Shown here piece by piece: positions 39,075 to 56,065 of a stretch of DNA of 64,000 bases (position 1 is its first letter; every line of letters starts with the position of its first letter). Both the position numbers and the translations under genes were made by a program. The DNA comes from Galbibacter orientalis DSM 19592 (lineage in GTDB: Bacteria; Bacteroidota; Bacteroidia; Flavobacteriales; Flavobacteriaceae), in contig NZ_JH651379.1 of NCBI RefSeq assembly GCF_000260115.1, forward strand, positions 2,831,466 to 2,895,465. Direction: 5' to 3'. The notes under the pieces are model-generated. The model had not been told where the DNA came from and searched no databases. It saw only the letters and a list, made by a program, of their open reading frames with translations.

Positions 39075-39126
39075 TTATACTTAATTTTTAGGATTATTAA
39101 TTAGCTTAGCTATTTGTTTTATTTAT

Positions 39127-39175
39127 CTTCTCTCTTCTCTCTTCTCTCTTCTCTCTTCTCTCTTCTCTCTTCTCT
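39127..39175. repeat. Perfect array of seven CTTCTCT heptamers
   Basis: Seven exact copies of CTTCTCT run without interruption over 49 bp, in the 145-bp gap between rdgB and the GNAT gene. On the minus strand it reads AGAGAAG and lies 53-101 bp upstream of the GNAT start. The unit length is not a multiple of the helix turn, so changes in copy number would move upstream sites around the helix. Confidence 0.95.
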
Positions 39176-54000: not shown

Positions 54001-54501
54001 TTAACGCTCCCAAAAAAATGGAGGTTCAATATTTAAGGTTCTTAAGTAAACATAGCCTTGTCCACGGTGATGCACTTCATTATCTATAAAATACAAGATA
54101 AAAGACATTACGGTGCCATCATATTCTCCAAAAAGCTTCATTTCTCTTGAAAAATCTTTTGTTTCAAGTTGTTCCCAGTAGCTATTAATTTCTTCGGTAG
54201 ATTTATCCCATAATTCTAAAATAGCCGACTTTTTCCCTCCATGGTCAAAATCTTCTCTTAGCTTTTCGGTGTTACCAATTACAATTTCTTTCATACCTGG
54301 AGCAGCTATTCCAATAAGCTCCATAGTCATTTCTGCAAAAGTTCTCATTCCTCCAATTTTATAGGTAAAGAATTCTTTTTCAGGAAATAGTTCAATAACA
54401 CGGCGGGTAAGAGTTCTATGCCCTTGCCAATGTTTTAATAACTCATCTGGAGTTAGTATTGTAGTTACATTTTCCTTGGTTTGATTGTTTGAATTTTCCA
54501 T
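54001..54501 (-). CDS. DinB-family protein
   Basis: 166 residues forming the DinB/YfiT four-helix bundle. Candidate metal-binding histidines are in LLKHWQGHRTLTRRV and near the C terminus in EVHHRGQGYVYLRTL. Such proteins act as metal-dependent thiol transferases or have unknown roles, and are often stress-induced. It diverges from the WYL regulator at 55019. Its promoter carries the same 16-bp operator at the same spacing, so it is probably controlled by that regulator. Confidence 0.85.
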   Translation of the reverse strand: MENSNNQTKENVTTILTPDELLKHWQGHRTLTRRVIELFPEKEFFTYKIGGMRTFAEMTMELIGIAAPGMKEIVIGNTEKLREDFDHGGKKSAILELWDKSTEEINSYWEQLETKDFSREMKLFGEYDGTVMSFILYFIDNEVHHRGQGYVYLRTLNIEPPFFWER

Positions 54502-54530: not shown

Positions 54531-54538
54531 CAAAATTA
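54531..54538 (-). promoter_or_regulatory. -7 promoter box of the DinB gene
   Basis: On the minus strand TAATTTTG matches TAnnTTTG. It starts 11 bp after the operator at 54550-54565 and ends about 30 bp before the DinB ATG. Confidence 0.65.
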
Positions 54539-54549
54539 GAGGAGGGGGA

Positions 54550-54565
54550 TGACAGCCTTATGTCA
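54550..54565 (-). promoter_or_regulatory. Operator TGACATAAGGCTGTCA upstream of DinB
   Basis: This is an inverted repeat of TGACA and TGTCA around a 6-bp spacer. It matches the copy at 54965-54980 at 15 of 16 positions, and 18 of 19 including the preceding TAC. It covers the -33 region of the DinB promoter. Confidence 0.75.
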
Positions 54566-54747
54566 GTAGTAAAAAAAGTTTTTTACTGAAGTTTAAAATT
54601 ATAGATATTTTTCTTCTTGTATAGGTACATTAACTTATAATAAGAAATGTTTTACTCAATAATCGAGATTTGAATGTTCCAAAACCTCTCTTGAGTTTAC
54701 AAAAGGCCTTACCCCGAGATTGTTTACTCATGTTTTTACATATGGCA

Positions 54748-54901
54748 ACGTATAATTTTAGGTCGCAAACGTAAACGAATACGTCTTAGTACGTAAAATT
54801 ATACGTAAGTAGTGTAAAGGAATACGTTTAAAACGTAAAAATTTGGATTATTAACGTATGCGCATACGTCTGCCTACGTATAAAGATAGATAGTAAACGT
54901 A
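54748..54901. promoter_or_regulatory. Array of eleven ACGT cores at helical-turn spacing
   Basis: ACGT occurs at 54748, 54769, 54781, 54791, 54803, 54824, 54833, 54854, 54866, 54876 and 54897, always as ACGTA or TACGT. The steps are 21, 12, 10, 12, 21, 9, 21, 12, 10 and 21 bp, close to multiples of the 10.5-bp helix turn. The block beginning at 54833 repeats the block beginning at 54748 (about 37 of 54 positions match): the ACGT cores are kept and the linkers have diverged. Bases 54854-54869 form a perfect 16-bp palindrome (ACGTATGCGCATACGT). No reading frame is present. Confidence 0.8.
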
Positions 54902-54964
54902 TACAGGGATGTTTTTATAGTTTTAATATAAGTAACATTTAGGGTGTGTGTAAAAAAATAATAC

Positions 54965-54980
54965 TGACAAAAGGCTGTCA
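54965..54980 (+). promoter_or_regulatory. Operator TGACAAAAGGCTGTCA upstream of the WYL regulator
   Basis: This is the same TGACA-N6-TGTCA element as at 54550-54565, in the opposite orientation. It lies 11 bp before a TAnnTTTG box, exactly as at the DinB promoter. Confidence 0.75.
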
Positions 54981-54991
54981 CAAGACTAGGT

Positions 54992-54999
54992 TAACTTTG
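54992..54999 (+). promoter_or_regulatory. -7 promoter box of the WYL regulator gene
   Basis: TAACTTTG matches TAnnTTTG and ends 19 bp before the ATG at 55019. This predicts a short 5' leader of about 15 nt. Confidence 0.65.
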
Positions 55000-55018: not shown

Positions 55019-56065
55019 ATGGCATTATATATTGATGACGAAGTTTGGGCTTCTGGAGAATTTTATTTTTTCTGGAAGTCTTATCTTTGGAAGATATGCC
55101 AAAACATTATGAGCGATACTACCATAAAACGCTTTAACCGAATAGTTACTATTTTGACACAATTACAGTCGAAAAAAATAGTGAAAGCACAAGACTTAGC
55201 AGACCGCTTTGAAGTAAGTTTACGTACAATTTATAGAGATATTAGAACCCTTGAAGCTTCTGGAGTTCCTATTATTAGTGAAGCTGGAATTGGATATAGT
55301 ATTATGGAGGGGTATAGACTTCCGCCAGTTATGTTTACTAAAGAAGAAGCGGGGAGCTTTGTTGCTGCGGAAAAGTTAATGCAACAGTTTACAGACGATT
55401 CTTTGGGGGCGTATTATAAAGCTGCTATGTACAAAATAAAATCGGTTTTAAGAGGTTATGAAAAGGATTGGATTGATGCTATAGAGTCTCAGATTACTAT
55501 AAATTCGTCTCGAGAACTTTTTAATAAAGACATTCCAAATGCCTTAGAAATAATTTTTGAAAGCATAGCAGAGAAGCGCCAAATCTACCTTCAATACCAA
55601 GCACTTCATGCAGATACACATTCTGAGAGATTGATAGAACCTGTAGGGCTCTTTCATGAGCACAATTATTGGTATATGATGGCGTATTGCCATTTAAGAA
55701 AAGACTACCGCCAATTTCGAACCGATAGAATCCTACAAATAAAAAGAACGCAAACGCCATTTTTATTAGCTCATGGGGCATTAGATAATTATTTGAAAAA
55801 AGAAGATCCTGCAAATAAAACTAAGATTGTAATTTTAGTAGATAAGCAGGTTTCAAAATACATGAAAAGTAATACCAATTATTACGGACTTATTTCTGAG
55901 AAAGTAAAAGGGAAAGATGTAGAGATGACTTTTCTAACTGCCGATGTAAAAGATGGTTTTGCACGCTGGTTTTTAATGTTTTCCGATTATGCTACCATTC
56001 TAGAACCACAGTCGCTAAAACACAGAGTAAAAGAGATTATTACAGAAGCCGCTTCTAGGTTGTAG
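55019..56065 (+). CDS. HTH/WYL-domain (YafY-type) transcriptional regulator
   Basis: 348 residues from the ATG at 55019. A second ATG at 55109 (MSDTTIKRFNRIV) is closer to the usual family start, but the promoter box fits the upstream ATG. The HTH_11 winged helix lies at about 36-90 (LADRFEVSLRTIYRDIRTLEASGVP). The WYL ligand-sensing domain lies at about 185-260 (LIEPVGLFHEHNYWYMMAYC, then FRTDRI), and the WCX extension ends the protein. WYL regulators sense small ligands or nucleic acid. It probably controls itself and the divergent DinB gene through the shared operator. Confidence 0.9.
   Translation: MALYIDDEVWASGEFYFFWKSYLWKICQNIMSDTTIKRFNRIVTILTQLQSKKIVKAQDLADRFEVSLRTIYRDIRTLEASGVPIISEAGIGYSIMEGYRLPPVMFTKEEAGSFVAAEKLMQQFTDDSLGAYYKAAMYKIKSVLRGYEKDWIDAIESQITINSSRELFNKDIPNALEIIFESIAEKRQIYLQYQALHADTHSERLIEPVGLFHEHNYWYMMAYCHLRKDYRQFRTDRILQIKRTQTPFLLAHGALDNYLKKEDPANKTKIVILVDKQVSKYMKSNTNYYGLISEKVKGKDVEMTFLTADVKDGFARWFLMFSDYATILEPQSLKHRVKEIITEAASRL

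Follow-up and report, generated by a model that had tools for sequence, protein, structure and literature searches.

Genes of an orphan family, encoding proteins of about 155 amino acids, are followed by phased arrays of short palindromic repeats whose motif is specific to the gene. As a genomic fact, this arrangement is well supported; how it works, we infer. We analysed a window of 64,000 nucleotides from Galbibacter orientalis DSM 19592. It holds an array of the same kind with no family gene beside it, carried by an insertion between a DinB-family gene and a WYL regulator gene. We propose that gene and array form a module in which the protein acts on its own array, either by itself or together with a partner, and that the window array is a solo copy of such an array. 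To this reading we give equal weight for and against. In what follows, G000 is the genome that holds the window, G001 to G006 are the six other genomes of the genus, and L-numbers are extracted loci.

The window array and its second copy

The array lies at positions 54748-54900 of the window (no strand). It contains exactly 11 ACGT cores, starting at 54748, 54769, 54781, 54791, 54803, 54824, 54833, 54854, 54866, 54876, and 54897. Our recount gives steps of 21/12/10/12/21/9/21/12/10/21 bp, in exact agreement with the preliminary description. Elsewhere in the window, ACGT occurs once per 702 bases. It means that 0.215 cores are expected in the array, and the Poisson probability of 11 or more is 9e-16, with no correction for having picked this place. 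Apart from the array, no 160-bp stretch of the window has more than 4 ACGT. A sequence scan also located the perfect 16-bp palindrome that had been reported, ACGTATGCGCATACGT, at 54854-54869 (no strand). It corresponds to one ACST-N8-ASGT unit.

A second copy of the array is present in G000 at C1:956222-956387, with 89% identity over 166 bp. It has 14 ACGT cores, and the steps between them are of the same kinds. The part common to both copies is longer than the array. It extends over window positions 54597-54930 and C1:956197-956532 (no strand), about 335 bp with 83% identity. In G003, the interval matching the site of the second copy is about 430 bp shorter. The preliminary description had divided the window array into two related halves with an 85-bp shift. 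This repetition is rather part of a general 21-22/42-43-bp periodicity, as in the second copy. Both the window array and its copy are solo (gene-free) arrays of their own genome. The array first described is real, and its context was misread.

The array was carried by an insertion between two divergent genes

A DinB-family gene (PF05163, domain match) is encoded on the minus strand at 54001-54501, and an HTH_11-WYL-WCX transcription regulator gene on the plus strand at 55019-56065. The WYL gene may start later than listed (window 55019-55150); a later ATG, common to the relatives, is found at about 55109. Each gene is preceded by an element that we take to be -7-like, according to the consensus of the Bacteroidetes type: TAATTTTG at 54531-54538 (minus strand) for dinB, and TAACTTTG at 54992-54999 (plus strand) for the WYL gene. 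The array does therefore sit between two divergent promoters, as had been stated. An operator-like inverted repeat, TGACA-N6-TGTCA, adjoins each promoter, at 54550-54565 on the dinB side and at 54965-54980 on the WYL side (no strand). Both repeats are also present in G002, G003, and G004, and they are probably the operator of the WYL regulator.

The comparison of this locus included G002, G003, and G004, the three same-genus relatives in which both flanks match. The stretch 54578-54949 (about 372 bp, no strand) has no counterpart in the orthologous region of these genomes according to the alignment, its ends being set from a flanking 9-bp repeat. In G003, both flanks abut, and G004 and G002 have other, shorter sequences at that place. 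The whole orthologous dinB-WYL regions contain 0 (G003), 1 (G004), and 1 (G002) ACGT. Conservation in the orthologous regions of relatives had been named among the tests that could refute the candidate binding array, and the array is absent from all three. The negative outcome is apparently due to its arrival by insertion. The inverted repeat and a -7-like element are found on each side of the insertion, which therefore seems to have separated the two operator-promoter units without breaking them. Both core promoters seem to be left intact.

The insertion has several features at its borders. The 9-bp sequence GTAAAAAAA is found at 54569-54577 and again at 54950-54958 (no strand), and these could be the left and right copies of a target-site duplication, or a chance repetition of an A-rich sequence. 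An AT-rich 11-bp inverted repeat (54593-54603 and 54916-54926, no strand, arms 91% complementary) lies near the ends of the part common to the second copy; it could be a terminal repeat or chance. Within the insertion, a REP-like dispersed repeat occupies 54648-54728 (no strand), with at least 21 further partial matches listed in G000. It is carried by both the window array and the copy at C1:956197-956532, and the window array would have arrived together with it. Among phages, the window stretch has no similarity beyond chance (best E 0.9). Likewise, the viral contigs contain neither a match to the array pattern nor a relative of the family gene.

Arrays of the 155-residue family are found downstream of the gene

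Of the 16 array loci annotated at first, 4 were adjacent to homologs of one gene of about 155 codons. To measure the linkage, we scored the periodicity of 6-mer repeats at lags 21, 22, 42-44, and 64-66 against 100 dinucleotide shuffles. The gene set started from 121 matches. Partial (fewer than about 110 model positions), identical, and near-identical sequences were dropped, which left 85 unique full-length genes, 83 with enough downstream and 81 with enough upstream sequence. The genes tested are the subset of the listed matches with an extracted locus (at most 30 per search).

The periodicity of 21-22 bp exceeded all 100 shuffles downstream of 61/83 family genes and upstream of 3/81. The main downstream lags were 21-22, 42-44, and 63-66. 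A first round of the test, with z>5, had given 27/44 downstream and 2/41 upstream. By this test, 22 of the 83 genes have no detectable array. Repeats of this kind were visible by eye after each of the first 17 homologs, with differing motifs; in this set L069 (the same gene as L100, its array split by an insertion sequence) fell below significance, and L113 was marginal. The array starts at a median of 84 bp past the stop codon and spans a median of 344 bp within the 600 bp examined. A crude scan found a terminator-like hairpin between gene and array in 27/61 cases.

Two controls were made. None of 40 other open frames of at least 150 codons in the same loci exceeded all 50 shuffles; these were stop-to-stop frames, some of which are perhaps not genes. 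The second control used predicted genes, and 2/52 genes of the window and 6/138 genes of the named 8-kb loci exceeded all 100 shuffles (8/190 together), although these loci may contain array types beyond the ACGT mask. This lifts the background from 0 to about 4%. Considering only the control genes with at least 100 bp of 3' non-coding sequence, 2 of 24 were positive in the window and 3 of 66 in the named loci. The two positives of the window are simple repeats, one GAGAA-type and one CT-rich. On the 3' side of a Ham1-family gene, window 39100-39175 consists of a GAGAGAA-type simple repeat, which is positive in the periodicity test but is no phased array.

Geometry is constant and motifs change

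Three or more strong dyads are present in 24 family arrays, and in these the dyad axes recur at 10-11, 21, 31-32, 42-43, 52, and 63 bp. No such series is present upstream of family genes (n=60). The family arrays of Bacteroidota have dyads every 10.5 bp or so and a period of 21-22 bp, in step with the helix. This recurrence supports the earlier view of a non-coding, helically phased array acting at the DNA level.

The motifs vary among genes and include CGTATC, ACCTAA, GGTTCA, AGGGTA, AAGGTA, and others. The motif table has 62 rows since two genes share L167 (also in the dyad analysis); the count used is 61. By eye, the paralogs of G002 alone have ACGTATCC, ACGTAAA, ACCTAAA, and CCTTAAAAGG-like arrays. 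A constant geometry with variable sequence explains the previous observation that core spacing persists while linkers diverge. Motif similarity increases with protein identity (Mantel r=0.23, partial r=0.33), with means of 0.08 below 30% identity and 0.36 above 70%. However, the Mantel r for the similarity of the upstream sequences is identical (0.23), and GC similarity is a stronger correlate of the likeness between motifs (r=0.31). These values therefore do not prove a co-evolution of specificity.

We also compared the two strands. The RNA folding energy favoured the gene strand in 19/39 arrays and the opposite strand in 20/39 (p=0.64); in this set, one array is counted twice (L069, L099) and a few are weak. 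In the imperfect arms, G.T mismatches (173) did not significantly exceed A.C mismatches (150; p=0.22). A search of Rfam gave no match to the window stretch up to E=1. In eight array loci, only a tRNA and a Flavo-1 element reached the gathering score. Since no strand bias was found, the sequence comparison favours a role of the array at the DNA level.

The protein family

Family genes are present in 4/7 genomes of the genus. A 17-row model found them in 23/395 genomes across the phylum, and a 42-row model in 43/395 genomes of the order and 31/391 genomes of another class. The family is multi-copy: G002 has six matches (one broken), and genome G499 has five unbroken genes. Scans of family members against Pfam, NCBIfam, PHROGs, and PADLOC gave no accepted match. 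These members showed no known DNA-binding domain, and no transposase or recombinase domain in Pfam, NCBIfam, or PHROGs. Plasmids and phages contain no family gene at E 1e-5. Most of the proteins are acidic, with a median pI of 5.4 (range 4.6-9.2) and a median net charge of -4.

A first AF2 model is all-helical with modest confidence (pLDDT 70.4, pTM 0.53). A second one, also all-helical, is weak (pLDDT 54.0, pTM 0.41). From these models, the protein is probably all-helical. Foldseek gave no match of the first model in the PDB at E<=0.001, and the search of the PDB by sequence gave nothing convincing (best E 0.13 for A1 and 0.014 for A3). The neighbours of the family gene in 84 loci form no cluster common to most of them. 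The largest two of four clusters comprise 10 and 9 loci, and we read the largest (10/84) as an XRE-type regulator of one lineage.

Solo arrays and their distribution

The pattern ACGT-N8-ACGT-N6-ACGT is present in 5/7 genomes of the genus (G000, G002, G003, G005, and G006), with none in G001 and G004. Of 149 genomes drawn from the taxonomic family, nearly all of other genera, only G000 had a longer form of it. A stricter pattern, scanned over 84,980 species genomes, gave 27 stretches. Of these, 23 are phased arrays, and L120, L127, L134, and L139 are not. Phocaeicola abscessus has nine of the 23, Joostella atrarenae five, and Galbibacter five (two species). The others are found one each in MAGs of Chryseobacterium, Flavobacterium, Flavobacteriaceae, and Pyrinomonadaceae. 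A gene of the 155-residue family lies within the 8-kb loci of 5/23 phased arrays.

We compared 22 solo arrays from five gene-bearing genomes with the gene-linked arrays, and for 17 the closest one came from the same genome (p=1e-4), with array spans set by hand. In Galbibacter and Joostella only, this is true for 9/14 (p=1.5e-4). The result is not uniform among genomes (0/3 in G006, 3/5 in G003). Descent and base composition could account for this likeness. In P. abscessus, eight of the nine array loci, one of them gene-linked, are about 76-83% alike to L133 in stretches within or close to the arrays. The ninth (L129), a shorter array, has no long match to L133 or L141 among the matches listed.

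The genome G005 has phased arrays (L074, L082, and L090), and no family gene was found in it. This assembly consists of one contig, is rated 100% complete, and gives 10 matches to the ACGT-array pattern; the most sensitive search run detected no family gene.

A proposed gene-array module and the alternatives

The proposed module would comprise the gene of about 155 codons and, from some 84 bp past its stop codon (median), an array of some 100-500 bp. The array would consist of imperfect palindromes spaced 21-22 bp, with dyads near one side of the helix. It may be the site where a cooperative nucleoprotein complex assembles, with a specificity that follows the module, and the product of the gene may act on it, by itself or with a partner. 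Paralogous modules in one genome would diverge in motif and so avoid cross-talk. Solo arrays would be dispersed copies, perhaps still recognised by the same factor. The role of the complex might be local silencing or insulation, anchoring, or the spread of the module itself. Several observations weaken this reading. G005 has arrays and no family gene was found in it, the proteins are mostly acidic, the members scanned show no known DNA-binding domain and their structure models are weak, and 22/83 genes have no array by the periodicity test. The motif correlations do not prove co-evolution, the likeness of solo arrays within a genome could be due to descent and base composition, and the crude scan places a terminator-like hairpin before the array in only 27/61 cases. 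More tentatively, and with somewhat greater doubt than belief, the small helical proteins and their 3' arrays may be recognition pairs found throughout Bacteroidota. They would have a fixed geometry and an interchangeable, fast-changing specificity, with several orthogonal pairs and solo targets per genome.

It remains plausible to relate the window array to a trans-acting factor. The candidate is the distant orphan protein and not the WYL regulator. Read locally, the array would be an operator of the WYL or DinB gene, and its place between the divergent genes would agree with this. Nevertheless, none of the three relatives in which both flanks match has the array, the operator-like repeats that they share fall outside it on both sides, and the same array is found at another locus. 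We regard such an operator as extremely improbable. We think a selfish dispersal similar to RAYT-REP systems unlikely. Here, the protein would move or copy the arrays, the gene-linked ones being autonomous and the solo ones non-autonomous. The resemblance of 17/22 solo arrays to their genome's gene-linked array is consistent with this idea, like the repeated loci of P. abscessus and the patchy, multi-copy gene family (23/395 genomes of the phylum; G002, G499). The insertion that carries the window copy, with its possible 9-bp target duplication and AT-rich 11-bp inverted repeat, points in the same direction. Against it, the scanned members lack a transposase or recombinase match in the three collections named above, and the REP-like repeat in both window-type copies could itself be the vehicle.

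The array could instead be transcribed into a chain of hairpins, for example into an RNA that partners the protein in the manner of type III toxin-antitoxin loci. The repeats adjoin a small-protein gene, and their palindromes could fold as RNA hairpins. Such an element is improbable given the even split between strands, the mismatch counts, the position 3' of the gene, and the Rfam results. We assign equally little probability to a host factor (gyrase, an HU-like or other nucleoid protein) that binds the arrays, the gene linkage being incidental. The arrays of G005 without the gene would fit this explanation, and phasing at 10.5 bp suits wrapping. However, the contrast of 61/83 with 8/190 and the diversity of motifs within one genome are unlike a single general factor.

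If the pairing of protein and array is true, the module would be a kind of genetic element not yet described, in a phylum that is prominent among gut and environmental bacteria, with a constant architecture and a variable specificity. Up to five unbroken paralogs per genome are present among the genomes seen. The pairing would make available a large number of independent protein-DNA pairs, from which one could read directly how specificity evolves. It would also explain intergenic repeat arrays that resemble noise in single genomes. Whatever the mechanism, the linkage of an orphan family to phased arrays is a testable question.

Comparison with known systems

RAYT transposases, of the HuH/Y1 tyrosine type, are encoded beside REP/REPIN palindromic repeats. 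The arrangement found here is similar in that one gene is flanked by palindromic repeats and gene-free copies of the repeats are dispersed in the genome. Gene-linked and gene-free repeats of one type coexist in a genome, as in the 17/22 solo arrays and in P. abscessus. In contrast to RAYT proteins, the family members scanned match neither Y1_Tnp nor any other transposase in Pfam. Moreover, the arrays are long and phased, with a gene-specific motif, and lie mostly 3' of the gene. The BIME/REP intergenic repeats contain gyrase or IHF sites. These are also palindromic repeats in intergenic DNA, whereas the arrays studied here have a strict 21-22-bp lattice, a motif varying among the genes of one genome, and a linked gene.

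In type III toxin-antitoxin loci (ToxIN, CptIN, and TenpIN), the repeats are located 5' of the toxin gene and act as RNA. The likeness consists of a small protein gene beside a tandem-repeat array. Unlike those loci, the arrays here are downstream (61/83 against 3/81 upstream) and show no strand preference. No family match to a ToxN-like fold was found; the AF2 models here are all-helical, albeit weak. Iteron origins and centromere arrays (plasmid iterons, parC) have about two helical turns per repeat. They share with our arrays the repeat of two turns or so adjoining the gene of a presumed binding protein. The differences are that the repeats here are inverted and not plain direct, and lie 3' of the gene. 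Neither Pfam nor NCBIfam gave a Rep, ParB, or RHH match for the members scanned, and the family gene was not found in the plasmid collection. In the open-access literature searched, PMC5771137 included, we found no description of a gene-plus-array arrangement.

Other elements near array loci

The preliminary description had suggested a search for other phased ACGT clusters in the genome. Besides the second copy, G000 has such clusters at C2:142547-142708 and C1:3481854-3482947. The latter appeared as two arrays 1 kb apart, and we considered them as transposon ends. They are better read as a single gene-linked array that a DDE_Tnp_1 insertion sequence has interrupted, at L069:5854-6980 (C1:3481854-3482980). 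The same DDE_Tnp_1 transposase recurs on contig C2, at L071:2334-3212, close to the solo array there. Just 5' of this solo array, an Xre/MbcA/ParS antitoxin and RES toxin pair is encoded (L071:3338-4311).

A 19-core phased array is found at L132:6107-6378, on a contig labelled as a Pyrinomonadaceae MAG, with no family gene found within 8 kb. Horizontal transfer or misbinning would account for its presence there. In G000, four ACGT cores spaced 11/21/11 bp (L070:2030-2080; C1:524030-524076) lie just 5' of a TacA-like antitoxin and GNAT gene pair. They are perhaps the operator of this pair, unrelated to the arrays. Finally, G000 has a second repeat family of about 125 bp, with more than 30 matches, near the second array copy.
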